Shown here in pieces: positions 23,301 to 38,922 of a stretch of 64,000 bases of DNA. The stretch lies in assembly GCF_000151205.2 (NCBI RefSeq), contig NC_016051.1, forward strand, positions 62,001-126,000, written 5' to 3'. Made by a program: the position numbers and the translations under genes. Under the pieces are notes generated by a model. It did no database searches. It was given only the letters and a program-made list of their open reading frames with translations, and had not been told where the DNA came from. Numbering within the stretch: position 1 is the stretch's first letter; each line of letters begins with the position of its first letter. The stretch is from Thermococcus sp. AM4. Lineage in GTDB: Archaea; Methanobacteriota_B; Thermococci; Thermococcales; Thermococcaceae.

Positions 23301-23332
23301 AAATTTTTAAGCCATTTTTGCCATTTAAATGC
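23301..23332 (+). promoter_or_regulatory. GMP synthase operon promoter
   Basis: AAATTTTTAAG (from 23301) is the TATA box and ATTTTTGCCATTTAAATGC (23314-23332) the candidate operator, alike in sequence and place to the purD element. Confidence 0.5.
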
Positions 23333-23346
23333 GAAAGGTGATGATC

Positions 23347-24270
23347 ATGTGGGAGGACTTCATCAGGGAGAAGGTTGAGGAGATAAGAGAAACCGTCGGC
23401 GATGGGAAGGCAATTATAGCGCTCAGCGGTGGTGTTGACAGTTCAACTGCCGCGATACTCGCTCACAAGGCAATAGGGGACAGGCTTCACGCGGTGTTCG
23501 TGAACACGGGCTTCATGAGGAAAGGCGAGCCGGAGTTCGTGGTGAAGACCTTCCGCGACGAGTTTGGCCTCAACCTGCACTACGTTGACGCGAGCGAGCG
23601 TTTTTTCAAGGCTTTGAAGGGTGTTACCGACCCGGAGGAGAAGAGGAAGATAATAGGGCGCGTTTTCATCGAGGTCTTTGAGGAAATAGCCAAGGAAATC
23701 AACGCCGACTTCCTGATTCAGGGAACCATCGCACCAGACTGGATTGAGAGCAGGGGGAAAATCAAGAGCCATCACAACGTCGGAGGCCTGCCGGAGAGGC
23801 TCAACCTCAAGCTCATCGAACCGCTCCGCGACCTCTACAAGGACGAGGTTCGGGAGCTGGCGAAGGAGCTCGGATTGCCTGAGAAGATTTACAACAGAAT
23901 GCCCTTCCCCGGACCGGGGCTGGCCGTTCGCGTCCTTGGGGAGGTCACGCCGGAGAAGATAGCGATAGTCAGGGAAGCCAACGCGATAGTCGAGGAAGAA
24001 ATCGAGAAAGCCGGCTTGAAACCCTGGCAGGCCTTTGCCGTGCTTTTAGGCGTCAAGACAGTTGGCGTTCAGGGCGACATAAGGGCCTACAAGGAAACGA
24101 TAGCGGTTAGGGTCGTCGAGAGCCTCGACGGAATGACCGCTAATGCCATGAACGTCCCCTTCGACGTCCTCCAGAGGATAGCGTTCCGCATAACCAGCGA
24201 GATTCCTGAGGTCGGAAGGGTTCTCTACGACATCACCAACAAGCCTCCGGCAACGATTGAGTTCGAGTGA
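23347..24270 (+). CDS. guaAB: GMP synthase subunit B (ATP pyrophosphatase)
   Basis: 307 residues. Activates XMP with ATP and accepts ammonia from subunit A. The PP-loop SGGVDSS is at residues 27-33 and the C-terminal [13 protein letters not shown] is the usual ending. In archaea this subunit and the glutaminase are separate proteins. ATG 23347 is chosen because GGTGAT lies just before it; upstream ATGs lie in the promoter element. A toxin-antitoxin pair separates it from the subunit A gene. Confidence 0.95.
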
Positions 24271-24311
24271 AGGCTTATTTACCTTCGTTTCCAACTTTAT
24301 GCGGTGGGAGC

Positions 24312-24521
24312 ATGGGCGAGATTATTGAGGTGGTTTACGAGAACGGCGTGCTGAAGCCTCTCAAGCCCCTCAAGCTGAAGGAGGGGCAGAAGCTCAGGGT
24401 GAGGATTTACCACGAGGACTTCCTTGAGCTGGCAAGGGAGATGAGGAAGAAGGTGACGCCCGAAAAGTTCAGGGAAGACCCGACGGACTATCTCCTTCGC
24501 TTAAGGGAGGAGGAAACATGA
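24312..24521 (+). CDS. AF2212/DUF104-type antitoxin
   Basis: 69 residues. The opening IEVVYENGVLKPLKPLKLKEGQKLRVRI is the hallmark of the AF2212/DUF104 family, small beta-barrel antitoxins paired with PIN toxins. ATG 24312 follows GGTGGGAG. It overlaps the PIN gene through ATGA and sits 41 bases after the GMP synthase B subunit, inside that operon. Confidence 0.85.
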   Translation: MGEIIEVVYENGVLKPLKPLKLKEGQKLRVRIYHEDFLELAREMRKKVTPEKFREDPTDYLLRLREEET

Positions 24522-24964
24522 GGGTCGTAGTTGATACCTCCGTTGTTTTCCACCTGTTTTCCAGCTTCTATCCTGAGAGAGCAGAAGTCGCTGAAAGAAT
24601 CATAGAGCATGCACAGTTGGGCTCGCTCGAGCTTTACGCTCCCCGCTTGGGGGAAGTTGAGTTCGTTGCTGTTCTCTCAAGGTATTTCGAGCGAGAGCAG
24701 GTTGAAAAGGCGCTAACCTACTACAGCGAAATAGTTGCGTGGGTTCCTGAGGAACTGCTCATCGAAGAGCTCCGAGAAGTGGCCTTTCAGACGCATCACA
24801 AGGCTTCTGATATCTATTTCATCGCGACCGCCCGTTACCTTGACGCGGGTCTTGTTACGAACGACAGGAAGATGGCCGAGCTGGCCAAGTCCCTCGGTTT
24901 GAGGGCTTTTTATCTCGTTGAGGAATCAGATGCCTTCTTCAAACTCCTGGAGGTGGGCTCATGA
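24518..24964 (+). CDS. vapC: PIN-domain RNase (VapC-like toxin)
   Basis: 148 residues. Metal-site acids are visible: Asp6 in VVDTSVV, Glu in EVEFVAVL, Asp in [10 protein letters not shown] and Asp in VTNDRKM. The family cuts RNA, often tRNA or rRNA, when free of antitoxin. It overlaps both the antitoxin upstream and the GMP synthase A subunit downstream by 4 bases each, so its translation is tied to an essential purine gene. Confidence 0.88.
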
Positions 24965-25527
24965 TAATTATAATGGACAACGGGGGCCAATACGTCCACA
25001 GGATTTGGAGAACGCTCCGCTATTTGGGAGTTGAAGCGAAGATAATCCCCAACACCACCCCGCTCAAGGAAATCAAGGCAATGGAGCCAAAGGGGATAAT
25101 CTTCTCCGGCGGGCCAGATATAACCAAAACGGGCAACTGTGAAGCCGTTTTGGAGCACTACGACGAGTTCAACGTCCCAATCCTCGGGATCTGCCTCGGC
25201 CACCAGCTCATAGCGAGGCACTTCGGCGGGAAGGTCGGCAGGGGCGAGAAGGCCGAGTACAGTCTTGTTGAGATTGAAATAATCGAGGAAAACGACCTCT
25301 TCTCCGGCTTTCCAAGGAAACTGAAGGTGTGGGAGAGCCACATGGACGAGGTGAAGGAGCTCCCGCCGGGCTTCAAACTGCTCGCGAGGAGCGAGACCTG
25401 CCCGGTTGAGGCCATGAAGCACGAGAGCCTTCCAATCTACGGCGTCCAGTTCCACCCGGAGGTTTCCCACACCGAGCGCGGGGCCGAGGTTTACAGGAAC
25501 TTTGCGAGGCTCTGCGGAGAGCTCTAG
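24961..25527 (+). CDS. guaAA: GMP synthase subunit A (glutaminase)
   Basis: 188 residues, a class I glutamine amidotransferase providing ammonia to subunit B. The nucleophile is Cys78 in GICLGHQL; His165 and Glu167 lie in FHPEVSH. The N-terminal [15 protein letters not shown] is typical of archaeal GuaA-A. Its start overlaps the VapC stop. The stop is followed by a short palindrome (25524-25536). Confidence 0.95.
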
Positions 25528-25639: not shown

Positions 25640-25915
25640 TTGGGACACACTATCTACTATAAAACCTCGATCCATCGGTGGGAGGATTTCCTGGGTTTCA
25701 TGCGCAGGATCTGCTGGGGACTTGGGTACGAGCTGGTATCCCTGGGTGAGGCCGTTAGAGTACTTCCCTCCTGTCCCCTGGTCGAGCCCCTCTTCATCCC
25801 GCGACGTGGAGAAGGCTTCACAAAGACGAATCTCGTTGAGCCCTGCCACTCGATCTATCTCCTTATCCTTCACTCGGCCTCGTCCTTTGGCTCGGTCTCG
25901 GTGTGGGAGGACTGA
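25640..25915 (+). CDS. small uncharacterised protein (91 residues)
   Basis: No family recognised. The product has two cysteines in the second half, an aromatic-rich N-terminus (YYKTSIHRWEDFLGFMRR) and a C-terminus with TNLVEPCHSIYLLILHS. The protein-like composition, a TATA box and a GGTGAT site support it over the other frames in this stretch. The start is a TTG at 25640 four bases after GGTGAT; no ATG fits. It overlaps the end of the DUF2101 gene on the opposite strand by 46 bases. Confidence 0.55.
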   Translation: MGHTIYYKTSIHRWEDFLGFMRRICWGLGYELVSLGEAVRVLPSCPLVEPLFIPRRGEGFTKTNLVEPCHSIYLLILHSASSFGSVSVWED

Positions 25916-26625
25916 TCCAGGTAAACTTCGAGAACCCTAACCGGGACGGAGCCCTTCAATGTTCTCTCCTCAACCAGTAACTTCACGACCCTTCCGGGCA
26001 GGGCGTCGGGAACCGCGGGAACCCAGTACCTGCCGGGCTTTACGTTCGCCGCGAGATCGTCGTTCACGAAGACCCTTATGAGATCCCCTCTGATTTCCTC
26101 GACGATCCCATATGTGTACTCCCTTCCGTACCGCTCCTTAAAGTACCATCTGAAGAGCAGGACCACTATCAGAACGCCTATGAGGTAGCCATAGTAGTAG
26201 TAAACGCTCGTTGCAAGCTTTCTCAGGAGGAGGTATCCCAGAAACGAAAGAAACGATATCACTGAAATCACGCTGTAAAAGAAGTAGTACGGCTCGGCCT
26301 CAACGAAGAAGTTCCAGTTCCTCTTTATCAGGTACCTTACGTAGGCTATCTCTCCGATGAACAGAAGGACAAGGAGGTACGGACTCCGTGAGGTCAGGAC
26401 TATCAGGAGGGAGAGCAGGAGATACCCAACGAGCACGAGCTGGAGCTTGAGGCTGAGGAGCTCATGAACCGTTACCTCCCTCCTCACGAGCCGCCGTAGG
26501 ATTCTGAATTCCGGTGGTTTGGACTGGGGGGTCGGGCTTACAAGCTCTCTGATACTGTGAACGGCTTTTCTGGAAAGCCCCTCTACAGCCTCGCCGATTG
26601 AGTAAAAAAGATCCAGGGGGGACAT
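25870..26625 (-). CDS. DUF2101-family membrane protein
   Basis: 251 residues with four membrane helices (about 57-79, 82-100, 112-133, 140-160), a basic N-terminus and a soluble C-terminal part with EEIRGDLIRVFVNDDLA and a Ser/Thr/Glu-rich tail. It matches the archaeal DUF2101 pattern, which has no known role. GGTGAT precedes ATG 26625. It is the last gene of the pilin-like operon and might be its membrane platform or a pilus-associated protein, but it lacks recognisable TadC/FlaJ features. Confidence 0.75.
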   Translation of the reverse strand: MSPLDLFYSIGEAVEGLSRKAVHSIRELVSPTPQSKPPEFRILRRLVRREVTVHELLSLKLQLVLVGYLLLSLLIVLTSRSPYLLVLLFIGEIAYVRYLIKRNWNFFVEAEPYYFFYSVISVISFLSFLGYLLLRKLATSVYYYYGYLIGVLIVVLLFRWYFKERYGREYTYGIVEEIRGDLIRVFVNDDLAANVKPGRYWVPAVPDALPGRVVKLLVEERTLKGSVPVRVLEVYLDQSSHTETEPKDEAE

Positions 26626-26634
26626 TTGATCACC

Positions 26635-29016
26635 TCACGGACAGGTGTATCCTTCTAATAAATCACATGTTCCTTCCGTGCCGAGGATTTCTTGAGCAGT
26701 TTGGGGATCTATGTAAAAGTTCATATCGTTGGATATTCCGATAACTTTATATCCCTCTTTCTTTGGGGCGTTTTTGAAGTAATGGAGCATAAAGTAGTAG
26801 TCTGTGCTCGTTTGATTATCTTCAAGCCCTATCCCAAGTGATACCATCAGCGAGACAAGTTTTGGATCATACGTGGTTTGTGGTATCATGAAACTTACCA
26901 ATCCGATTGGCCTTCTTGAGTAACCCATTTGGTTTTGAATTGTATAGGAGACGTTGACGTATTCATCATGGTTTGTATTTGTCCCTTCCAATCTCTCAAA
27001 AAATGACCAGCCGTCTTCTATAGCAAAGTATCTCATTCCCTCAAGGCAATCTTTGAGTGGTTGTATATCATAGACGTGGGCAGTGGAACTTGAGCTTGGA
27101 GTGGGCGAGGAGCTTGATGATTGTGGTTTATTTTCGACTGTACTAGAGTATTCCAAAGTGGGGGTATTGGGGGAGTACTTTCTGATTCTCAAGGAGTCTA
27201 CATAGTAGACGTACCCTCCGTGGATTACCACCCTATCAAATGTGTTGTATGTTGTATCTGAAACACTTACACTGGCATCGGGTACAGCTCCTAGTTCATA
27301 TCTGTTCCATGTATTTTTATTATAGACTTCAAGTATGAGGTCACTTTGTTTGATTATCATTCTGAAGAAGTACCAATCGTCCTCGGGGGGATTCCAATAT
27401 TTCCTTGATGAAATTATGGTTGGGATTCCCTTGATTCTCTTATCTATCCAAATGTCATCCTTGCTGTGCCTAATAGATATGGAGTATCCATTAAAGTTGT
27501 CATCCTCTAAACCAATTCTGTCAACTGGTCCTCCCTCCCACTTTTTCGGCCGGTATACGTAGCCCTCTAAAATTATGTCACGTCCCATATTTTTGCCTAT
27601 GAGTTTATACCCTCCATTGGGGTCATTATATTCATCTTTTCTGAGTGAGTATCTACCAGTGTAAGCTACATCACTGGATTGTTGCACACTTCCATGGTTA
27701 TACTGGTTCCATCCTTTCCAATTTTCAAAATCCTCATAAAAATCAAACACAGTGTAGGGATCGCCTTTAGTCTCCGTACCCTGTGAATCAAAGTATATTT
27801 CCAATGTAATCTGAGAGTACTGCGGAATCGTGACTTTTACCCACAGCAAAGCCTGCATTGATTGAGTGTTCCAAGTTTCTACCCAGAAGCTCACGGGATT
27901 GCAATTCTGGTCATAGACTGCCAGTATTGGGATGTTATCCCCATCCGCATCTGCTGTGTTGAATAATTTGTTCAAAACGTCTGACGTCAGGTGGGAACTA
28001 TCCAAATAAATTGGAATCTGAAAATCAGTTAATTGCGGGCCGTTGTTCTTTATTGTTATGTTAAACCTGTACCTTAACGAGGAGCACCAGCCAGAGATTC
28101 CTCCAGAACTACCCCCATTATTGGAAGTGGTGTTGAACATAACTACCCCTAAGTCCCCGTCCTTGAGTACGATTGCATCAGTTGTCACGGGGGTTCCACC
28201 GATCGTGAAGTTGGTCACACTGAACTCACTGCTCCATATGTGAGTTAAATTATAGTTGAACTCCTGTCCAAACCTGCCGATGTAATATCCACTACCCGTA
28301 CCTGAAGCGTTTGCAAATGTTATGGGGCGTATTCCAAGCGTTGGAAACGCGAACTTACACGATCTTATTGAGCGATGATACCTTCCTCCTGTTATGGCCG
28401 AGAAGAATGGATCTTCAAGATCACGTATGTCCACTGTCGCATATATGTATCCACCGTTTGAGGGTAATGGCCCATCATAAACAACAGTCCTTGATGAGTC
28501 CATTATCCTGATCTTTGGAATACGAGCTTTGATAACTACAGTGAATGCATCAAGAAGGGCCACTTCTATGTCCATTGACTTTACGATATCATCAACAGAG
28601 GGTGAAATCGTAAATCCCTGTTCATTCAAGAGTTTGCTGACGTTGGATAACCAAGTTTTCATAGTTTGTTTGCCCATTACCCGTAGGGTATCATATCCCT
28701 CTGTTGATGGGGAAGTTCCTGTTTTCATGAAATCGCGGATGGTGTTGTTCGCCTTGTACGTTGGGCTTATGAAGTTGCCAGTAACGGCCACGTAATCGAC
28801 CGCGGCAACAACGGCCCTCTTTCCTGACAGCTCTAACGCCTTCTGGAATTCGAGGTTCAGGAAGTTGATGACGTCATAGGTTCTTTCAAACTGGGTTCTC
28901 TCACTCTGAGCTTTGATTATCGAGGAAGATACGTCCTCGTAAGTAGCTAGGAGAAGGAGGAGGGGAATAAGGAGCACAATGACAGCCGAATTAAGAAGGA
29001 ATCCTCTCCTTTTCAT
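26635..29016 (-). CDS. giant pilin-like protein with a DUF2341 domain
   Basis: 793 residues. A short basic start and one hydrophobic helix (about 5-24, FLLNSAVIVLLIPLLLLLA) anchor a very large outer part. The central region carries a DUF2341 domain (NGPQLTDFQIPIYLDSS) and then a LamG/concanavalin-like stretch with a bound-sugar look, suggesting binding to carbohydrate or surface polymer. A Ser/Pro-rich linker follows the lectin-like part. ATG 29016 is chosen because GGAGGG lies upstream. AT-rich codon use in the outer part contrasts with the anchor. Role: probable tip or minor pilin of a surface structure. Confidence 0.75.
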   Translation of the reverse strand: MKRRGFLLNSAVIVLLIPLLLLLATYEDVSSSIIKAQSERTQFERTYDVINFLNLEFQKALELSGKRAVVAAVDYVAVTGNFISPTYKANNTIRDFMKTGTSPSTEGYDTLRVMGKQTMKTWLSNVSKLLNEQGFTISPSVDDIVKSMDIEVALLDAFTVVIKARIPKIRIMDSSRTVVYDGPLPSNGGYIYATVDIRDLEDPFFSAITGGRYHRSIRSCKFAFPTLGIRPITFANASGTGSGYYIGRFGQEFNYNLTHIWSSEFSVTNFTIGGTPVTTDAIVLKDGDLGVVMFNTTSNNGGSSGGISGWCSSLRYRFNITIKNNGPQLTDFQIPIYLDSSHLTSDVLNKLFNTADADGDNIPILAVYDQNCNPVSFWVETWNTQSMQALLWVKVTIPQYSQITLEIYFDSQGTETKGDPYTVFDFYEDFENWKGWNQYNHGSVQQSSDVAYTGRYSLRKDEYNDPNGGYKLIGKNMGRDIILEGYVYRPKKWEGGPVDRIGLEDDNFNGYSISIRHSKDDIWIDKRIKGIPTIISSRKYWNPPEDDWYFFRMIIKQSDLILEVYNKNTWNRYELGAVPDASVSVSDTTYNTFDRVVIHGGYVYYVDSLRIRKYSPNTPTLEYSSTVENKPQSSSSSPTPSSSSTAHVYDIQPLKDCLEGMRYFAIEDGWSFFERLEGTNTNHDEYVNVSYTIQNQMGYSRRPIGLVSFMIPQTTYDPKLVSLMVSLGIGLEDNQTSTDYYFMLHYFKNAPKKEGYKVIGISNDMNFYIDPQTAQEILGTEGTCDLLEGYTCP

Positions 29017-31181
29017 TAACCCTCCCTCCACACGCGCAGGGTTATCTGAATCGGTTTAAAGAGACCCGGTATATTCCCCATTGATGCAAAGTCTATGTTG
29101 ACCGTTGAGGGAAGCTCCACAAGGATGGGATTGTCTTCGGTTCCATCCCCGCCAAGGTTGTTGAAAAGCCTTACTATAGCGTCATCAACAGCGTAGGTAG
29201 TTCTATTCTTCAGGAGATCCTCTGCAGTAACGTCGCAGTATGGGGGATCCCCTGCAGTGATGTAGTGTGGGTTCGAATCCCCAACCCAGTAGTAGGTTAT
29301 GTTGTACCCCTTGCACCCGTCGCGGATGTATTTGGGAAAGACGTCGCCGTAGCCGGCGTATGCCTGTATCAAGTAAGTGTACGATCCTTGGGAAAATTCC
29401 TTTGAAATGTCATAGCTCCCCGTTAGAGATACATCAATGTAATTATCGCCAGATGCGAATGTTGGAATTACAAGTCTCCCAGTGGTATCTCTTGTGGGGT
29501 TAGGTATTCCCATGTACCAAATTCTATAGTTTTCATTGAAAATTTCCGTCCATGGAATTTCGCTATTTTTAATCTTAACTTTCATGGTTCCTCCAGAATA
29601 ACCGGTGTATACATCGAAATACATCAGGGTCCAAACTGGGATCACATTTTTAGGAATATCATATCTCCAAGTTAAACCTGTACAAAGTGTTAATCCCCCA
29701 GATGGAGCCGAACATCCAGTGCTTGAAACGATATTATTTTGATTGATTTCTTTGGTTATGTCTATGGTGTAAGGTGTTAAAGTAGCCAACTTGTAAGTGT
29801 AATCTATCTTGATAAATGACAAAGTTTTGTCGTAAACTATCTGAACCGGAGGATTAATGGCTTTATCAGTGTAATCATGGGTGTTGCTATTAATGTAGAT
29901 TTCTACAAAAGCATAGTGTCCAGAGAGTGTGGAGTAATTCAAAACGTTCGCTATGGTACTGTTTGACCATGAGAACACACCATTTGAGTTAGGGGACACC
30001 ACAGATATCTTTTTATTGTTGATGTAAAGAGTGGCCTTGGCGTCAGAGGGTAAATTCTTTACATGAATACTAACCTCAAAATTTGTGAGGTTTCCCGGAA
30101 TGAAAACGTGCTTTCCAACGACTATTGGCAGATAGTAGGAGGAGAAGCTATCAAAATACGTTACTTTGGGGTACCTAAATGTGGAAAGCTTGGACGTGGT
30201 ATAAGTTAAAGTTATAAACTGAAAAACAGGACCTATATTTATATCGTCATAATAGGGTAAATATTCTTTAACTTCAAAGACATGATATCTCTGGCTGCTG
30301 TGTCTTTTTATTATGTCGAGCATGTTGCACGAGTTCGAAAGAGAATCATCGACAAGAATTTCTTGTTTCGTAACCTTAACCCATGTGTTTGCTTTATACT
30401 GCCCACATGTTACCCCCTCTCCGTCTATGTATAGTTGAACCTTACCTCCAAACATGGGATCAACGTAGGGCCACCATTTTACCTCGATTATGTTAGCATC
30501 GTCCGGTAGAAGTTTCTCGTTAGGAACAATCATTTTAACGTCAATTGGAGTGTTGGAGTTGGTATAGTATCCGTATCCCATATATTCCATGCCTGTGTAA
30601 ATATAGCTTGTTTCCTTGCTACCTAATTTTGTCAGATACGCCCTCGCCATATAGCCCCTAGGCGTTTGGTTGTAGGCGTAACCGCTCATCACCAGCGTCG
30701 CCGGGGAAACCTCCGGAACTTTCGAGGGATCCGCACCGACTTTTCTCAGGTAGGGACTTGTGTAATTGTTTATCAGCAGCTCGTAATCGTAGCCCTTAAG
30801 CGTGCTGTTCAGGATGTATCCAAGGATTATCTCCGCCTTATGCCTCAGGTCTCTCTTTGGATAAAGGGGCCCCGTTGCCCAGTAGGTTGCCACTATCTCA
30901 AGGGGGCTCATATCTGGGCTTACGAGATCGGAATAAAGAACGGCGCTTTTCTCATCTCCCGAAGACCAGTTCTCTATAATATCGGGGGGAACCAAATTGC
31001 GTAATGGGACCGTTCTAAGAATCTTGAGGGTATTCTCGGCGGTGTACTTGCTCTCCCCCCTAAGATACGTCCCGTAGACGTTCTGACTCTGATACAGAGA
31101 CGCAACGATCCCCACTAAAAAGAAAGATATCAGCACAAGTGATAGCAACGCATCCAATGTGAAGACGAATCCCCTCCTCAT
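29016..31181 (-). CDS. giant pilin-like surface protein (721 residues)
   Basis: One N-terminal helix after MRRG (FVFTLDALLSLVLISFFLVGIV) has the hydrophobic pattern and acidic residue of archaeal pilin-type N-termini, although the class III cleavage motif is only partly kept. The rest is extracellular, beta-rich, with many Asn-X-Ser/Thr sites and no domain I recognise. GGTGAT lies before ATG 31181. The anchor region has normal GC; the outer domain is AT-rich (22 G/C in 29701-29760, against 33 in 31021-31080). Likely a structural minor pilin. Confidence 0.75.
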   Translation of the reverse strand: MRRGFVFTLDALLSLVLISFFLVGIVASLYQSQNVYGTYLRGESKYTAENTLKILRTVPLRNLVPPDIIENWSSGDEKSAVLYSDLVSPDMSPLEIVATYWATGPLYPKRDLRHKAEIILGYILNSTLKGYDYELLINNYTSPYLRKVGADPSKVPEVSPATLVMSGYAYNQTPRGYMARAYLTKLGSKETSYIYTGMEYMGYGYYTNSNTPIDVKMIVPNEKLLPDDANIIEVKWWPYVDPMFGGKVQLYIDGEGVTCGQYKANTWVKVTKQEILVDDSLSNSCNMLDIIKRHSSQRYHVFEVKEYLPYYDDINIGPVFQFITLTYTTSKLSTFRYPKVTYFDSFSSYYLPIVVGKHVFIPGNLTNFEVSIHVKNLPSDAKATLYINNKKISVVSPNSNGVFSWSNSTIANVLNYSTLSGHYAFVEIYINSNTHDYTDKAINPPVQIVYDKTLSFIKIDYTYKLATLTPYTIDITKEINQNNIVSSTGCSAPSGGLTLCTGLTWRYDIPKNVIPVWTLMYFDVYTGYSGGTMKVKIKNSEIPWTEIFNENYRIWYMGIPNPTRDTTGRLVIPTFASGDNYIDVSLTGSYDISKEFSQGSYTYLIQAYAGYGDVFPKYIRDGCKGYNITYYWVGDSNPHYITAGDPPYCDVTAEDLLKNRTTYAVDDAIVRLFNNLGGDGTEDNPILVELPSTVNIDFASMGNIPGLFKPIQITLRVWREG

Positions 31182-31188
31182 AGTTTCA

Positions 31189-33294
31189 TCACCTCTCCCA
31201 CATTTTGAGATCAATCTCCATGACCGAATACCTACGGTCGAGAACCGCGTTGAGGTTGCTCTCGTCCTCTACCCTTACCCAGGAGAATCCATCAACGCTG
31301 TAAACCCACAGCGCGAACTGGATGGGGGGATTCACATCTGCGATCAAACAATCAATCGGGATTTCAATAACGCCGCCTCCTCTGAAGGCTACCCTGCATA
31401 CGCTTGGATATTCCGCGTATATTTCGCCGCTTTCGTTAACTAGGAACTGTTTGCTGACAACCTTTATCCTCTCTCCGTCTCTGACTATATAGACCGCAGT
31501 GATCCCGCTTTTCACTGATGAAAACGCAGATACTAGCAGAAGGTTTCCATCCCCTGTGGGGGGTAAGATTATTCTTAAATTGCCCTGAATGCGATCGGTT
31601 ATAGTACCGTCGTACAGTCTCAAAGGAAGTTCCTGATCGGGTGTCACTGTGTACGAACGGTTATAAATCCGTATCGAAGCTGTGACGATTCTCTTTGTGG
31701 TTTCAACCCATGATGCGTTTTTCATGGAGTTCTCCGCGATGGTCTCCGTTGCAATCTTTTCATTCACTATTATTATATCTCCTATGGAGGCAAAATCCGC
31801 TGGGTAGAAAATCTGAGAGAGGGAACTAGGGGAGGAGTTTATCTCGATTGTAGGTTCTCCCGATGCCGCTATGCACGGGGGCAACTTTATAGGTGGCATC
31901 TGAGCGTCAAAACTTGGTTTTGTTGCCCCTGATGGAATCGAATGAGATAGGTTTCCTCCAATTGAATAAAACCTATCGGGATTGCTGTTATCGGGTATAA
32001 TTATTGAGCCTGTTACGTACAAGTTGCCATCAACCTGAAGTTGTCCACTCCAAGTTATAGTTATGCTTCCTTCAACATAGAGATCGCCGTGGACTATCAT
32101 TTTCCCGTTGTTTATGTTCAAGTTTCCAACAATGTACGCGTCTCCATTGACTTCGAGAGTTTTCCCTTCATCTATAGTGAGCCCGTTCCCTACGTAGAGT
32201 TCACCAACTGTTGTGTCTCCTATCACCCTCATGCTATCCCCTACGTACATTAGTCTGTTTACGTTGACAGTTCCTCCGGGGAACATGTCATAGCTACCTT
32301 TCACGTAAAAGTCTCCGTTCAAAGTAAGTCCCTGTGTCCCAATTTTAGCATCACTGAACACGTATATTGAATCCTCAACCGAAACTGAGGATCCACCTTC
32401 CAGAGTGAGTTTTCCCCGTGAGTACAGGTTCCCCGATACGTAAAGGTGTCCACTATCATGGACATATGTTTGCCCACCAACGTAGAGGCTTCCATCAACG
32501 GTGTAGTAGCCGCTACGCTGAATCTCTAGGTCGCCTCCTATGTATGCGTTGCCGTGAGATGTGGCATAACCGCTATTGCCAATATTAGTGTCGCCTGTTA
32601 CATACCATTCTCCTGCGGTAACGTGACCGTCGCTTCCAACCGTTAGACTCCCGTTTACTCCAAAGTAATCTCCGATGTTTAGATAAAACTTGCTACCTAC
32701 GAAGGTATCTGATAGAACACAAACGAAGTACTGGTTCGAGTAATTATTCAACCACCATGGGGGTGGATTTAGGGGCTGATATCCCGAGAATTCGAATTCT
32801 CCATTTTCACATTTTACCGTTACAGGGCTGTCCGTTGGAAGACCTGCAGGGGAACAAGCGGGAACGTAACTGGGAGTCCCTGGATTTGTAACTACCTCAA
32901 CATTGGGAGGTTTCGATAACGTTCCCTTGACTCTGAACGAAAGCCACGAATTCTTTCCTCCAGTGAGGTTTATAAGGGACGAAAACACACTTTCTGAGTT
33001 CCTTTCGTGGAGAAGGGCCATGACCTTGTTGTACGACAGGAAGTTCCCAGTTTTTTCAGCCAGTCCAACAACTACTACTCTGCCTGGATTTTTATCCCAG
33101 TCCACCGGATCACCCGGACTTCTCGTGAGGACGTTGAGCATGTTGTCAGCTACGTTCGACCTCTCGTACCAGCCGATCATCGATGTTATCTCGCCCTTTA
33201 ACATGGTGGACGTGTTTATAACCGCGGCGAACACGAACATCATGATTATCAGCGACAGCATCGCGTCGAGGGATAACAGCTGGGCCCTCCTCAT
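31189..33294 (-). CDS. giant pilin-like protein with beta-helix repeats
   Basis: 701 residues. A pilin-like helix follows MRRAQLLSLDAMLSLII. From about residue 210 to 450 the protein is a string of short repeats built around YV-x-G-(D/N)-LYV, the pattern of bactofilin-like or polymer-forming beta-helices (for example YVGGDLEI, LYVGGQTYV, YVSGNLYS, HGDLYVEGS). A final 220 residues form a separate beta-rich domain. It would build a long rigid stalk outside the cell. GGTGAGAGC precedes ATG 33294 and the start overlaps the previous stop. Confidence 0.78.
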   Translation of the reverse strand: MRRAQLLSLDAMLSLIIMMFVFAAVINTSTMLKGEITSMIGWYERSNVADNMLNVLTRSPGDPVDWDKNPGRVVVVGLAEKTGNFLSYNKVMALLHERNSESVFSSLINLTGGKNSWLSFRVKGTLSKPPNVEVVTNPGTPSYVPACSPAGLPTDSPVTVKCENGEFEFSGYQPLNPPPWWLNNYSNQYFVCVLSDTFVGSKFYLNIGDYFGVNGSLTVGSDGHVTAGEWYVTGDTNIGNSGYATSHGNAYIGGDLEIQRSGYYTVDGSLYVGGQTYVHDSGHLYVSGNLYSRGKLTLEGGSSVSVEDSIYVFSDAKIGTQGLTLNGDFYVKGSYDMFPGGTVNVNRLMYVGDSMRVIGDTTVGELYVGNGLTIDEGKTLEVNGDAYIVGNLNINNGKMIVHGDLYVEGSITITWSGQLQVDGNLYVTGSIIIPDNSNPDRFYSIGGNLSHSIPSGATKPSFDAQMPPIKLPPCIAASGEPTIEINSSPSSLSQIFYPADFASIGDIIIVNEKIATETIAENSMKNASWVETTKRIVTASIRIYNRSYTVTPDQELPLRLYDGTITDRIQGNLRIILPPTGDGNLLLVSAFSSVKSGITAVYIVRDGERIKVVSKQFLVNESGEIYAEYPSVCRVAFRGGGVIEIPIDCLIADVNPPIQFALWVYSVDGFSWVRVEDESNLNAVLDRRYSVMEIDLKMWER

Positions 33295-33761
33295 GCTCTC
33301 ACCGCCTTCACGGTTATGCTCATGGTTTTACCCCCGTAGGTAAGGGCCCCTCCCACCAGAGAGAATCCCTCCGATTCAAGCCGGTTTTTAATGAACTCCG
33401 AGACCGCGCTCTCAACATCTGCCGCGCTCAGCGGTCCGGAGTAGATCACGGTAACGTTGAGGCTTATAGAGTCGCCCGTCGAGGAGACAATGAAAGTTCT
33501 CTCAACCCGGCACTGAATCGACGAGTAGTTGACCTCTTCTATCAGCGTGTTGAGGGGGGAATAAGCCGGATCCTCGACCTCGACGCCGGTTCCGAGGTAT
33601 GAGCAGGCGTTGTCGGCCGCGTTCTTGACGTGCATCAGGACAACCGTGTCGGTGTTGGTGTTCATGTACCCCGGAAGAATTATGGCCGCGCCGATGAGGA
33701 TGATCCCCGCTATGAACAGGACCTCAAGGGCCGTCTGGCCTTTAGCCCTGAAGGGTGACAT
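33291..33761 (-). CDS. class III signal-peptide pilin-like protein
   Basis: 156 residues. The start RAKGQTALEVLFIAGIILIG is a class III signal: the prepilin peptidase would cut before QTALE and the helix then packs into a pilus core. Conserved Cys residues occur at about 53 and 78. ATG 33761 is chosen because GGGGGTGAG lies just before it. A small globular outer domain follows. Confidence 0.82.
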   Translation of the reverse strand: MSPFRAKGQTALEVLFIAGIILIGAAIILPGYMNTNTDTVVLMHVKNAADNACSYLGTGVEVEDPAYSPLNTLIEEVNYSSIQCRVERTFIVSSTGDSISLNVTVIYSGPLSAADVESAVSEFIKNRLESEGFSLVGGALTYGGKTMSITVKAVRA

Positions 33762-34179
33762 AGATCTCACCCCCCACGCTCCGGGCGGTCACGTTGAAGG
33801 CCCTCTGGCCTGGCCCTAAGGTTATTGAGCTCGTTGTGTATAGCGGAACCTGCAACCTCTGCGCGACTTTGAAGGTCTTGCTCCCGAGCGTTGCCGTTAT
33901 CTCAACCCTGTTGGTCGTCGAGTTCAGGGTTATGGTTATGCTGTCTCCGGTTTTGAGCTCAAATGGGAGCTCCTTCCTCACCGTGAAGCCGTCGCCGGCC
34001 GCGTAGACCTGGGCGACTGTATCCCTCAGATCAACCGCGAGGATCTTCAGCTTGGCCGCGCTGTCGAAGGTTCTGGCGTTTGCAGTTTCTCCCGATGCAA
34101 CGGAGACAATACCGGCTACCGTGACGGTTATGAGCATTATTGCAATGAGGAAATCAAAGGTTATCTGGGCCGGCCTCAT
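33742..34179 (-). CDS. pilin-like protein with a variant class III signal
   Basis: 145 residues. The N-terminus AQITFDFLIAIMLITVTVAG keeps the spacing of class III signals but has Asp in place of the usual Glu and Thr in place of Ser. The outer part is a beta-rich domain of about 110 residues. It probably joins the pilus as a minor pilin. ATG 34179 follows a GGTG site; the stop overlaps the next gene's start. Confidence 0.75.
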   Translation of the reverse strand: MRPAQITFDFLIAIMLITVTVAGIVSVASGETANARTFDSAAKLKILAVDLRDTVAQVYAAGDGFTVRKELPFELKTGDSITITLNSTTNRVEITATLGSKTFKVAQRLQVPLYTTSSITLGPGQRAFNVTARSVGGEIYVTLQG

Positions 34180-34180
34180 C

Positions 34181-34822
34181 TCACCCACCGGGGTTTATGT
34201 TTATCCTGAGCTCTCCGGACGTCGAGTTGAACGCCCACGAGTTCGGAAGGTCAGGATTCCACTCCACCACAACCTTGATGACAGGGGGAATTGTTGAGGG
34301 GTTCAGCCTGAGGCCGTAGACGGTCGTTGCCCCGGTGCCAAAATCAACGCTGGCACTCGATCCGCCCCAGACCGTTGAGTTCCACATGAGATCCCTCTGG
34401 TAGAGCGCCCTCGTCCAGAAGGCGTTCTTGTCCCCACCGGTCAGGACTACGTTCGTTGTTCCCGTGCCGTTGATGACGATCACGTACGTTCCGTTTCCGT
34501 CGGTGAGGTGCTGGCCGTACGTTACGAAGACAACTGGATCGGTGACGCCCCACACCTTTTCCAGGTAATACGGCTTCCTGAGGTAGACGAGCTTCACGTA
34601 AACGGTCGTCTTGGAGCCCGGGCCCTGGGAGTACGCCTGGCTTATGGCCCCCGAGATGGTGTTGGCGAGTTCCTTTTCCTCGAGGGCGATCTGTACACTC
34701 AGGGTTTCGATCGACTGGGAACCCTGCTGGAACGTCGTGTTTCTGACGGAGTAGGCTAACAGGATGAGCAGGATTGCGAAGACGAACAGGAATTCGAGGG
34801 AAACCTGACCCTTCTTGCCCAT
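34181..34822 (-). CDS. class III signal-peptide pilin-like protein, first of the pilin operon
   Basis: 213 residues. MGKKGQVSLEFLFVFAILLI is a clear class III (Q-x-S-x-E) signal peptide, cut after Gly5. A soluble domain of about 185 residues follows, with a WNPDLPNSWAFNSTSGELRI ending. It heads an operon of six pilin-like genes and DUF2101. ATG 34822 follows AGTGAGGAC; a GTG at 34831 would start inside that site. Confidence 0.82.
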   Translation of the reverse strand: MGKKGQVSLEFLFVFAILLILLAYSVRNTTFQQGSQSIETLSVQIALEEKELANTISGAISQAYSQGPGSKTTVYVKLVYLRKPYYLEKVWGVTDPVVFVTYGQHLTDGNGTYVIVINGTGTTNVVLTGGDKNAFWTRALYQRDLMWNSTVWGGSSASVDFGTGATTVYGLRLNPSTIPPVIKVVVEWNPDLPNSWAFNSTSGELRININPGG

Positions 34823-34852
34823 AGTCCTCACTCTTAGTATGTTATGGATTTT

Positions 34853-34865
34853 GCCTATTTAACGC
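34853..34865 (-). promoter_or_regulatory. pilin operon TATA box
   Basis: GCGTTAAATAGGC on the minus strand, about 30 bases before the first start codon, gives the pilin genes a promoter separate from the CetZ group. Confidence 0.5.
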
Positions 34866-34886
34866 TTGCCCAACAAAAATGAGGGA

Positions 34887-35513
34887 TCATTCCACATCAT
34901 TGAGGGGTTCGGCCACGGCAAAGGACTCCCTGCCGATTTTAATCCGCCTAACGCCGAAATAATCATCGTTGAACAGCTTGAACCTGTACCTCTCTGGCTC
35001 GAGGTTGTACCTGCTCAGAAGGGCCCTCATCTCGTCGATGAAGAACTGGGTCAGCTGGTGGTATATCAGGTCGCTCTTCTCCCCCGCACGGTCAAGGACC
35101 CAGACAACTAAGGGCAGTATCGCCAGTCCGGGAATGGCAAAGTACCACGAGAGGAACGCCCCGGCCGCTATTGAGAGGACGACTCCAATTCCTATGAGTG
35201 ACAGGAGGAAGTACTTGGCCTTTCTGACGTCCTTCAGCTCCTCGACCTTGGCCTCCCATATGTCCAAGAGGGCCGGGTTGTAGAAATCGAAGGCGGTGTG
35301 CCTCTTTCCCTTCCTGATGCGCTCCCTTATCAGGTTGTCCCAATCGTCGTGGTAGTAGACGAAGAAGCCCCTCTTCTGGGCCCGTTCGGCGTCTATCGAC
35401 GAGATTATCCGCCTTATGTCCTCGGCGCTCTCGTGGGCTATGTGGGAGTACACCTCCCTTTCGTCGAGCTCCAGCGCAACCTCCACTGAGTCCCTTATCT
35501 CCTCAGTCGGCAT
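34887..35513 (-). CDS. membrane protein downstream of CetZ
   Basis: 208 residues. A charged soluble N-terminal part of about 95 residues, two adjacent membrane helices (about 105-150), and a C-terminal soluble part. No family recognised. ATG 35513 follows GGTGGTGAGG and overlaps the end of cetZ by 11 bases, so the two are co-translated. It could anchor CetZ to the membrane or connect it with the surface genes; this is inferred from position only. Confidence 0.7.
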   Translation of the reverse strand: MPTEEIRDSVEVALELDEREVYSHIAHESAEDIRRIISSIDAERAQKRGFFVYYHDDWDNLIRERIRKGKRHTAFDFYNPALLDIWEAKVEELKDVRKAKYFLLSLIGIGVVLSIAAGAFLSWYFAIPGLAILPLVVWVLDRAGEKSDLIYHQLTQFFIDEMRALLSRYNLEPERYRFKLFNDDYFGVRRIKIGRESFAVAEPLNDVE

Positions 35514-36600
35514 CCTCACCACCGGGGTAGAGGTCATCGAAGTCCGGAAGACCGGAGAGGAGCTCCTTCTTCTTCTCCTCGGCTTCCTTCTTTGCCCTCA
35601 TGAAGGAGCTCGCGTACTCCTTGGCGGTTCTGATGATGCGCTCAATGCTCTCGCTGTCGTAGATACCGCTGAGCAGGGTTACGACCTCAACCTCTCTCGT
35701 CCTCGGGTCCGGGTAAAAGCCCCTGAATATCTGCTTCCCCTTGATCCTGTCGGTGAGCTCGTCAAGGGCCTCGAAGATCTCCTTCGCCTTGAGAACCTCC
35801 GGCGGGCCGTGAACGGCAACGAGGCCGTAGAGGGCCGACTCGACGTTGGCCTCTAAGTAAAGCCCCTCGCTCTCGAACGACCGGACTATGAGCTTTGAGA
35901 GGCTCTTGAGCTGATCGGCTCTCGCTTTGGCGTAGCCAACCGTCGCGAAGCTCCCAAAGGCTTTGAGGACGAACTTCAGGTCGCTCGCGTCGAGCGTCTG
36001 CTCCCCGGGAACGTCGATCAGGGCGAGAAGGGACGCTATCCTCTCCACGATCGTGTAGTTTATCCTCTCGTAGGCCTGGGAGATGTCCAGATCGCCTTCT
36101 TTGAGCTTGTTGTTGTCTATCGCTATTATCGAATCGGCCACCTTGGAGAGCTTGTCTATGGTTATCGCCGCGTTGATCGTCGGTCTTATCCCCTCCTCCC
36201 TGAGGGGGAGCGCACCGATGGCAACGACGAGAGAATCCGGGTACTCTTCCGTGAGGGCCTCGGCAAGGACCGGCGTTCCGCCGGCACCGGTTCCGCCGCC
36301 GAAGCCGAAGGTCAGGAAAAAGATGTCAACGTCCTCGTAGCCGACCATCGAGGAGATCTTCCTCATGACCATTGGGAGGTCCCTCTTCATGGCCTCCCTG
36401 CCGAGAACCGGGTTCGCGTTGACGCCCTTTCCTCCCGTCAGGCTCTCCCCGATGAGGATCCTCCTGTCCGGGGGAATGTGCTTGAGGTAGTCGAGATCTC
36501 CCCGGGACGTGTTTATAGCTAAAGCCTCAAAATCGACGAGGGAAAAGAGGTCGGCTATCTTGGTTCCGCACTGGCCGACCCCTATGATTATAGCCCTCAC
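35503..36600 (-). CDS. cetZ: CetZ-type tubulin/FtsZ-superfamily GTPase
   Basis: 365 residues. The N-terminal IIIGVGQCGTKIADLF nucleotide loop, the T4 tubulin signature GGGTGAG (101-107) and the later DNNKLKEG region mark the tubulin/FtsZ fold. The CetZ-like opening (QCG rather than the FtsZ GGG) fits CetZ, which controls cell shape and motility in haloarchaea rather than division. The C-terminus is a charged helix. A secreted toroid protein lies upstream and a membrane protein downstream, then pilin genes. Confidence 0.88.
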   Translation of the reverse strand: MRAIIIGVGQCGTKIADLFSLVDFEALAINTSRGDLDYLKHIPPDRRILIGESLTGGKGVNANPVLGREAMKRDLPMVMRKISSMVGYEDVDIFFLTFGFGGGTGAGGTPVLAEALTEEYPDSLVVAIGALPLREEGIRPTINAAITIDKLSKVADSIIAIDNNKLKEGDLDISQAYERINYTIVERIASLLALIDVPGEQTLDASDLKFVLKAFGSFATVGYAKARADQLKSLSKLIVRSFESEGLYLEANVESALYGLVAVHGPPEVLKAKEIFEALDELTDRIKGKQIFRGFYPDPRTREVEVVTLLSGIYDSESIERIIRTAKEYASSFMRAKKEAEEKKKELLSGLPDFDDLYPGGEDAD

Positions 36601-36609
36601 GCTCTCACC

Positions 36610-38874
36610 TCATCCCACCGTCTCGGCGGTTACCTCGTTGAGCTCTATCTTTCCATCCCCGTTCCTGTCCTCGTAGTGGATCACTACAGCTGGCCCCTGC
36701 ATGTACTTGACGTAGCCTATCTTGAACACGAGCTTCGCGATCTCCGAGGAGTCCTCGTCGTACAGGACGAAGAGTATAACGCCCTTAGCGGTTCTTCCCG
36801 GGATCAGGAGGACCGTGTTCTGGCGCGGGTAGGTGGAGTTGTTGAGCTCCACGGTGTTTCCTGCCACGTCCAGGGCTATGTAGCGGTTGTAGCGGGAGAC
36901 GTTCACGTCGCTAAATCCGGCGAGCACTATGGCGTTGCCCTCTTCGATCAGCGAGAGGGGTCCGAGATCGAAGCGGTAGCCGAAGGTTTCGCGGAGGTAG
37001 TTCAGTATCTCCTTGGCGTCCCCAATCCTGTCCTCTGAACAGAGCACGTTGAAGGTCGACGTCTCAAGGGCGTTCCTGACGTCCGAGAGATCAACCATCG
37101 GCATCTTGTTGAAGCTTGAGAGGTATATCACCGCGAAGGCCGTCTCCAGGGTATCGTTGGCGATCAATCCTGAATCCCTGGCCTTCTTCACGAAGTCGAG
37201 CGTCTGCTGGCTGTAGTCAAAGCCGTAGTGCAGGAGGAGAAGGGTTGCCTCGACGGTCAAATCCACGCGGGGCCTGCCCATGAGTTCCGTCCCGTTGATG
37301 TCGGTGTACTCCTTCGCGTAGGGCCAGCCGCCATCGACCCTCTGGGATATGAGCCAGTTTAGATGGCTCTCAACCTCGGGTTTGGTCGCTATTGGCTCCA
37401 GCGCCTTCAGAACGGTAAGCGTGTCGAGGACGTTCACGTCGAGCATGAAGGGATATATCCCGCTCTGGTAGTAGAGGCCCCATCCCGTTGAGCTTATCGA
37501 GAGGAGCCAGTTCTTGGCGGCAACTACGTCGGGATCGGATTTATTGACGCCAAGGGCCAGTAGAGCGCTCAGGGCCATTGCCGTCTCGGCCGGCTGGGGA
37601 CCGAGGTCCTTGATCCCCCACTTCCCGGTGTCCATCCTGATGGACTTTATCACCTCTATCGCGTGCTCCCTCTCGCTCTCGTTGAGCCTGTTGAAGTGCA
37701 GGAGCGTCATCAGGGCGTAGTAATACCCAACCGTGAGCCTGCTCTCGTTCAGAACAACGCGTTCGTCTTCTTTAAACCTCTTCTCGGTCCAGTTCAGGGC
37801 TTTTTCAACCACATCCGGAGCAGGATAGCAGGCCTCGACGGCGAGGAGGGCGTAATAGGTTGCCTTTTCGTTGGACGGTGAGCCGCGGTAGATTCCCCAT
37901 CCACCGTCCGGGTTCTGGTAGGAGATAAGCTGGTCGCAGGGCATCTCGTTGGGGTTGACCCTAACCTCCCTTATTGGGGGCACGAGCTTGGAAACGGCAA
38001 GGAGCGCGTAGGCGGTCGGCGTTACGGTGTCGGTTACCGAGATCGGGTACTTTGGCGTGTCCGCCCAGAAAACCATGTTTGCCCCGGTGTGCTTTATCTG
38101 ATCGAGCCTCGCTATCGTCGCCACGACCTCGAAGGTCGGCTCGGAGTAAAGGGTCAGGGCGTAGGTCAGGAGCGCCCTCTGGGTCGGCGAAAGCTCTTCC
38201 CCGTTGAGGATCCCTATGAGCTCGCTTACCTCGGACCTGTCAACGGGCTCTCCCACTGCCTTGAAGGCTATGAGCCTGAGACCGAGGGCGGTGTAGTCGT
38301 CGATGTACCTCGGCAGGTCACCGAGGGATGAAATCGCGGACGAAACCACGGGGCTGGACGAGTTGTAGCCGTTCTCCCCCAGGGCCCAGAGTGCAAGAAC
38401 CGTCGGGTAGAACATGGGTGTGCTGTCCGGGATGTAGCCCCAGGCGTTGCCCGTCTTGGAGTTCAGCAGGAAGTTAATTCCCCTCTTACGGGCGTCGTCT
38501 ACCGTGAAGAGGTCGTCGGTTCCCTCAAAAAACTTCTCCGCCTTTGAGAGGGCTATCAGGGCGTAGGAGGTATCGAGGACGTTGCTCACGCTCTCCGGGA
38601 AGTAGCCCCATCCACCGTCCGGGTTCTGATAGGAGAGCAGTTCCCTCGTGAACTCCCTGATCTTCGGCGTCAGATCCTCGTTTACCTTGCCGCTCGCCTC
38701 GGCGAGGGCCACTATTGTCAAGCTTAGAGTTCTTACCTGCCCGCTGCTGTCTCCAAACTTCTTGAGAAAGTTCACGGACCCTTCCGTCATGGAAAGGGCC
38801 GCGGTGAGGGGGGCGAAGACGATCACACCGATGAGAATCAGGGGAATAATTTTCAGGGCCCACCGTTTCATCAT
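36610..38874 (-). CDS. secreted alpha/alpha-toroid protein with a calcium-loop motif
   Basis: 754 residues. A basic start and hydrophobic core (about 6-27) form an export signal or anchor. The body is built of prenyltransferase/terpene-cyclase-like toroid repeats: QNPDGGWG at 83-90 and 320-327, and a third SQRVDGGWP later. No catalytic Asp-Asp motif of cyclases is apparent, so it is likely a binding or structural toroid. Near the C-terminus DRNGDGKIELNE (about 736-747) is a canonical EF-hand-type calcium loop. It is the first gene of the CetZ unit. ATG 38874 follows a GGTG site. Confidence 0.78.
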   Translation of the reverse strand: MMKRWALKIIPLILIGVIVFAPLTAALSMTEGSVNFLKKFGDSSGQVRTLSLTIVALAEASGKVNEDLTPKIREFTRELLSYQNPDGGWGYFPESVSNVLDTSYALIALSKAEKFFEGTDDLFTVDDARKRGINFLLNSKTGNAWGYIPDSTPMFYPTVLALWALGENGYNSSSPVVSSAISSLGDLPRYIDDYTALGLRLIAFKAVGEPVDRSEVSELIGILNGEELSPTQRALLTYALTLYSEPTFEVVATIARLDQIKHTGANMVFWADTPKYPISVTDTVTPTAYALLAVSKLVPPIREVRVNPNEMPCDQLISYQNPDGGWGIYRGSPSNEKATYYALLAVEACYPAPDVVEKALNWTEKRFKEDERVVLNESRLTVGYYYALMTLLHFNRLNESEREHAIEVIKSIRMDTGKWGIKDLGPQPAETAMALSALLALGVNKSDPDVVAAKNWLLSISSTGWGLYYQSGIYPFMLDVNVLDTLTVLKALEPIATKPEVESHLNWLISQRVDGGWPYAKEYTDINGTELMGRPRVDLTVEATLLLLHYGFDYSQQTLDFVKKARDSGLIANDTLETAFAVIYLSSFNKMPMVDLSDVRNALETSTFNVLCSEDRIGDAKEILNYLRETFGYRFDLGPLSLIEEGNAIVLAGFSDVNVSRYNRYIALDVAGNTVELNNSTYPRQNTVLLIPGRTAKGVILFVLYDEDSSEIAKLVFKIGYVKYMQGPAVVIHYEDRNGDGKIELNEVTAETVG

Positions 38875-38909
38875 AGTCCACACCTCTAAAATCGCTAAAC
38901 GGCGGCGGA

Positions 38910-38922
38910 ATAAATAAAGTTT
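38910..38922 (-). promoter_or_regulatory. promoter of the toroid-CetZ unit
   Basis: AACTTTATTTATT on the minus strand, about 40 bases before the toroid start, fits a TATA box. No other gene lies between it and the Taw1 stop at 38946. Confidence 0.45.

Follow-up and report, generated by a model that had tools for sequence, protein, structure and literature searches.

Archaeal type IV pili (T4P) of clade 1 (Epd-type) are the described systems closest to the locus analyzed here, with which they share class III minor pilins, giant proteins with DUF2341, and an ATPase accompanied by two TadC proteins (PMC4858521). Makarova 2016 (PMC4858521), with reference to Szabo 2007, reported that thermococcal T4P loci of clade 1 encode DUF2341 proteins together with a GTPase of the FtsZ family and a "squalene cyclase". 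Brown & Duggin 2023 (PMC9856176) found 15 of 15 Thermococcales cetZ regions to be pilus-associated and well conserved in organization, and suggested that CetZ may scaffold the pilus. We analyzed an island of this kind in Thermococcus sp. AM4, within a window of 64,000 nucleotides (C1:62001-126000 of one 2.09 Mb Thermococcales contig). In this order, and all on the minus strand, it encodes a secreted toroid protein, the tubulin-family GTPase CetZ, a membrane protein (tm216), six pilins of 213, 145, 156, 701, 721, and 793 aa (pil213 to pil793), and a DUF2101 membrane protein. An initial annotation of the window had named these genes with positions, strand and sizes that we confirm, and its interpretation is partly supported by the results presented below. 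Its statement that no description of the combination was known is wrong; the joint occurrence of CetZ and pilin genes is already known from the two papers cited above. In contrast, we found no description in the open-access literature of the two features on which we focus here, an exchange of the bodies of the giant pilins and the pairing of a conserved CetZ tail with tm216.

For the comparisons, orthologs were surveyed in 94 Thermococcales genomes and the island was compared with 60 related islands (L083-L142) from six genera. The same CetZ group and the same pilus-linked neighborhood as in PMC9856176 are thereby extended from 15 genomes to 60 islands; neither tm216 nor the CetZ tail peptide nor the pair of promoter-like sites described below was found in the sections of that paper considered here.

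The stretch at positions 26652..33095, which covers the bodies of the giant pilins pil701, pil721, and pil793, is hypervariable and of low GC content (about 43–46%), with two short conserved patches. Relative to the closest relative examined (G019, whose CetZ is 98% identical), DNA identity amounts to 86–88% in the flanking regions and in the greater part of the island, and no DNA similarity was detected over most of 26.65–33.10 kb, that is over the three giant bodies, save the two short patches. Correlation of protein identities with guaA identity in 53 genomes gave Spearman rho values of 0.31–0.78 for the backbone proteins and of −0.07 to −0.02 for the giant bodies. Likewise, the closest relative ranked 2–3 by the backbone proteins, the fast-evolving toroid and short pilins included, and 12–20 by the giant bodies. 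A cross-genus case was seen for pil721, which is 79% identical between G090 and G019 (guaA 85% identical) and only 39% identical between G090 and its own close relative. Replacements of a single gene were also found in close pairs, namely of pil721 in G007/G011 and of pil793 in G086/G092, in both cases between sides of about 90–97% DNA identity, and in the close pair G033/G044 all three giants are replaced between well-matched sides. Judged from these sequence comparisons, exchange of the giant bodies takes place across species and genus borders, while their surroundings follow descent. In 58–59 of the 60 genomes the giants have a lower GC content than cetZ; as the same holds for most island genes, low GC does not by itself demonstrate import. 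A search of the AM4 genome for further or silent copies, made for pil793 and pil701 only, found none, and thus no store for cassette switching was seen. Our open-access search for hypervariable Thermococcales pilins returned the VARTIG Ig module (PMC8416519) as the sole directly relevant report; as with the giants, a large surface protein varies there through recombination, but the report concerns other genes, which are not pilins, in a text without CetZ, FtsZ or DUF2341. Body exchange is also not mentioned in the sections of PMC4858521 on clade-1 T4P that we considered.

Class III cleavage motifs could be recognized in almost all relatives (~60 genomes) of each of the six pilins, although only pil213 passes the Pfam Class_IIIsignal cut-off. 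The three short pilins carry an acidic residue at mature position +5: Glu in 61/61 sequences of pil213 (34181..34822), Asp in the 58 parsed sequences of pil145 (33742..34179), and Glu in the 50 sequences of pil156 (33291..33761) with a signal parsed at Q+1. In the modular pilins pil701 (31189..33294), with a conserved N-terminus and an exchanged body, and pil721 (29016..31181), with an N-terminal helix and a beta-rich exchanged body, the acidic residue is Asp6 (60 and 59 sequences, respectively). The last pilin, pil793 (26635..29016), which is also the largest here and contains DUF2341, has no acidic residue within mature positions 1–9 in any of the 60 sequences parsed. From pil213 to pil793 the pattern therefore reads Glu5, Asp5, Glu5, Asp6, Asp6, no acidic residue, and pil793 closes the pilin series in 60/60 islands.

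This arrangement is similar to the tip complexes GspHIJK of the type II secretion system (T2SS) and PilHIJK of T4aP, which likewise comprise a minor-pilin set with a last gene that lacks the position-5 acid and is mostly the largest. The likeness to T2SS minor pseudopilins, which had been noticed initially from the short-then-giant order, is thus upheld and sharpened by the last gene. On the other hand, here the set has six genes, two of them with Asp at +6, and huge beta-rich bodies, and homology was compared in the signal region only. Two GspK-type traits of pil793 hold everywhere and the size trait in most genomes, which makes the protein a candidate GspK-like tip initiator or adhesin. In the clade-1 T4P model of PMC4858521, minor pilins are placed near the base, whereas the position-5 pattern observed here argues for the tip. 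DUF2341 was detected in 26 of the 36 pil793 proteins scanned, and DUF2341 proteins have been proposed as PilY-like tip adhesins (Makarova 2016, PMC4858521). A comparable design is known from PilB/PilC of Streptococcus sanguinis (PMC10191384), where adhesive domains are grafted on pilins at the tip; these are bacterial proteins, and in the part of that paper considered there is no report of body exchange among species.

The pil793 orthologs fall into length classes of ~360, 460, 800, and 1100 aa, the shortest probably without DUF2341. For pil701 of the window a weak Bactofilin match below the cut-off was recorded; such matches occurred in only 3 of 37 pil701 proteins scanned, the window included (best E 7.9e-08), and the rest, mostly ~480 aa long, gave no Pfam family. 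The AlphaFold model of pil721 (pLDDT 78) consists of a helix at residues 9–57 followed by beta strands. No meaningful PDB match was obtained for pil721 by sequence, and Foldseek with its model returned beta-rich and CBM-bearing proteins with TM-scores of ~0.2 or less, so that no domain was assigned.

The window contains no secretion ATPase, as had been noted in the initial annotation. This is true but misleading, as the ATPase is encoded elsewhere in the same genome: at 1.592–1.598 Mb, 1.5 Mb distant from the island, we found a secretion ATPase (C1:1596130) together with a TadC platform pair (C1:1592297-1594056), the whole set spanning C1:1592297-1596732. ATPase and pilins are thus split between two distant loci in Thermococcus sp. 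AM4, a difference from the clade-1 T4P described. We assign the system to clade 1 because it has a pair of TadC proteins and because clade 1 has been reported for Thermococci (Makarova 2016, PMC4858521). Another ATPase, encoded at 0.83 Mb next to a TadC-like platform, was taken for that of the archaellum. TadC is encoded in 93/94 Thermococcales genomes; in other families of the class, three give any match, with only 23–30% identity. Together, the class III signals, the clade-1-type ATPase and TadC in trans, and DUF2341 support the earlier view of a surface appendage of the type IV pilin kind. The T4P ATPase of the AM4 genome also appears to contain an intein (L051:12067-15684, minus strand, a 1205-aa open frame), with a splicing/homing-endonuclease-like insert in the nucleotide-binding domain.

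The genes are closely spaced: over 60 relatives, median gaps between consecutive genes along the island are 7, −8, 40, 1, −20, −4, −4, −1, and 6 bases, and the only sizeable one separates tm216 from pil213. At this point the TATA-like sequence TTAAATA (34856..34862, minus strand) stands upstream of pil213, exact in 58/60 relatives, whereas shuffles predicted 1.5 occurrences and only 0–4 of 60 were found before other genes. A second TATA-like site (38909..38919, minus strand) lies upstream of the toroid gene in 55/58 relatives; TATA-like sequences are rare before all genes other than these two. The two conserved promoter-like sites thus delimit two adjacent transcription units, toroid-cetZ-tm216 and the pilin operon, as the initial annotation had it. 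That annotation also named loss of the CetZ-pilin linkage in related genomes as the observation that would speak for chance adjacency; the linkage is kept, and the gene order from CetZ through tm216 to the last of the six pilins is identical in 60/60 islands.

CetZ (365 aa, 35503..36600) matched Pfam Tubulin PF00091 with 106.5 bits and CetZ_C PF21011 with 61.9 bits (cut-offs 33 and 21.6 bits), and its closest solved chains are 4b46, 4b45, and 3zid. The GGGTG and T7-loop LD..D patterns of the GTP-binding and catalytic loops are intact in 61/61 sequences. An ortholog was found in 89/94 Thermococcales genomes, with a conservation at the level of housekeeping genes, while other families of the class outside Thermococcales gave only FtsZ-level matches (27–34% identity, E no better than 6e-28). 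In addition, 14 bacterial contigs (L029-L042), mostly of Sphingobium, showed a tubulin/FtsZ-like match of ~200 residues to CetZ with 28–31% identity.

FtsZ is known to bind membrane anchors through its C-terminal peptide. The CetZ tail is laid out similarly, as a variable linker is followed by a near-invariant peptide, LLSGLPDFDDLY (35524..35562, minus strand), a candidate docking motif. In 61 sequences the tail L347–Y358 (consensus LLSGLPDFDDxY) varies only at S349 and L357, with D355 at 0.97, and LPDFDDxY is exact in 59/61. Because the tm216 frame, as its start was chosen, begins downstream of this motif in 36/60 relatives, overlapping coding does not explain the conservation of the tail. 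The candidate membrane partner of CetZ is tm216 itself (34887..35537; 216 aa, or 208 aa from an internal Met), in which a membrane segment of variable sequence separates a conserved N-terminal domain (residues 15–100) from a C-terminal part that is also conserved. The mean majority-residue frequency is 0.88–0.89 in residues 15–100, 0.47 in the membrane part and 0.68–0.74 in residues 154–200. Positive residues flank the membrane segment on both sides, by which both ends of the protein are probably cytoplasmic. No Pfam family was identified for tm216 and no PDB fold matched at E ≤ 0.001. CetZ and tm216 are missing from the same five fragmented assemblies of the 94 Thermococcales genomes, and outside Thermococcales, in the same class, tm216 is absent apart from one marginal match. 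On this evidence we regard the CetZ tail and tm216 as a candidate anchor pair. Positioning of the pilus assembly by CetZ, as put forward in the initial annotation, is plausible and has already been published as a suggestion.

The first gene of the unit encodes an alpha-alpha toroid of 754 aa (36610..38874; the 'squalene cyclase' arCOG03396 of the literature) with matches to Pfam SQHop_cyclase N/C, TED, and Prenyltrans. Its N-terminus is signal-peptide-like. In 59 relatives the cyclase motif DxDD was found in 3 and DDTA in none, and a CGEQ-type thioester was likewise absent from all 59, so that neither a catalytic cyclase nor a Complement/TED thioester protein was retained as an assignment. The protein had been called a secreted calcium-loop toroid; a secreted toroid it appears to be, but the strict loop DRNGDGKIELNE is present in only 33/59 relatives and is not a defining trait. 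Two whole genomes, G020 (L089) and G072 (L110), lack the toroid gene through a clean loss between tyw1 and cetZ and keep CetZ and all pilins. We propose that the toroid is a secreted, dispensable accessory. In the family scans its start was taken one codon upstream, and that of pil156 one codon downstream, of the coordinates given here, which had no consequence.

At the opposite end of the island, the last gene of the pilin operon encodes the DUF2101 membrane protein (251 aa, 25870..26625; PF09874, 250.6 bits), which is present in 59/60 islands and gave no match in 14 control genomes. Beyond it, the subunits of GMP synthase are encoded by two separate genes (window positions 23329-25527, plus strand), between which lie a small antitoxin-like gene and a gene for a VapC-like PIN toxin; a relative of the latter is present in 22/60 related islands.

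Starting from what can be established by sequence analysis (gene identities and order, the two promoter-like sites, the position-5 pattern, the body exchange and the ATPase in trans), we arrive at an explanation that we consider reasonably probable: the island would encode the minor pilins at the tip of a clade-1 T4P, with adhesive modules that can be exchanged, together with a CetZ scaffold bound to the membrane via tm216. The six class III proteins would constitute the minor-pilin set of a pilus assembled by the ATPase and the TadC pair encoded 1.5 Mb away. pil213, pil145, and pil156 would build the tip base together with the pilin portions of the giants, and pil793, with its DUF2341 and without the acidic +5 residue, would start the tip as its first subunit, like GspK of T2SS. 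The giants would bear surface-exposed adhesive bodies, which intragenic recombination would exchange among strains and genera, and the pilus would keep its machinery and change its binding target. The CetZ scaffold would be located at, or close to, the pilus base or the pole, held by tm216 through the C-terminal peptide. Tip location and adhesion, as well as CetZ-tm216 binding and any physical connection between CetZ and the pilus, are what we infer here. Several observations weigh against this explanation. pil793 is short (356–480 aa) in ~9/58 genomes, so that 'largest' is not universal, even though the median is 830 aa. Methanogen clade-1 pilus loci are described without CetZ in PMC4858521, and hence clade-1 pili do not need CetZ. 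With separate promoter-like sites, co-expression of the two units is not given. Furthermore, tyw1 and guaA, which flank the island without being related to it, are likewise retained in 52–53 of the 60 islands; the region is generally stable, and the conserved linkage is therefore weak to moderate evidence of joint function. The linkage is real, yet it may be merely historical. Alternatively, toroid, CetZ, and tm216 may form a separate module for cell shape or a membrane cytoskeleton that merely borders the pilin operon through frozen ancestry, an explanation that we find less convincing but still take seriously. The separate promoter-like sites and the retention of tyw1 and guaA speak for it, as do the conservation of CetZ at housekeeping level, which the pilins do not share, and the action of CetZ1 in both shape and motility in Haloferax (PMC11621097). 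It accounts less well for the constant company of CetZ, tm216, and the pilins in 60/60 islands, given that glxK, one gene past tyw1, lies beside the island in only 4/60, or for the independent cetZ2-T4P linkage reported in haloarchaea (PMC9856176).

The remaining alternatives concern what the pilins and the toroid do. A pseudopilus-like secretion device exporting the toroid or other cargo would fit the short-then-giant order and the GspK-like last pilin, but appears improbable, as the toroid has a secretory-type signal of its own and is missing from two whole genomes in which the pilins are retained, and as clade-1 systems of archaea make real pili in Methanococcus maripaludis (PMC4858521). 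Even slightly less credit is due to the view that the giant pilins simply evolve fast, with no exchange between species. Surface proteins often diverge fast, and the toroid and the short pilins are fast as well (median identity 37–45%); these fast backbone proteins, however, still track descent and the giants do not, the giant bodies match distant genera better than near relatives, and the edges of the replacements are sharp within DNA that is otherwise about 90–97% identical. The Pfam and arCOG names of the toroid (PMC4858521) suggest an active squalene/terpene cyclase that would supply the island with membrane lipids; this is the most improbable explanation of all in the light of the signal-peptide-like start and the cyclase motifs missing from nearly all relatives.

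Within the favored explanation, a tip set of exchangeable modules with a membrane-bound CetZ scaffold, a further step can be formulated, although we hold it only tentatively: the assembly side of the pilus would be fixed by the CetZ-tm216 cytoskeleton, and the three giant tip pilins would act as a recognition head passed between genera. If true, a lineage could change its binding target, be it a surface, a partner or a virus, and leave the machine untouched. The island makes it practicable to test whether an archaeal pilus is positioned by a tubulin-like cytoskeleton, with tm216 as a candidate anchor and a specific peptide to address. It would also represent an archaeal pilus tip in which large bodies are exchanged between species on a fixed base, and its natural alleles make the recognition of surfaces, partners, and viruses testable in Thermococcus.

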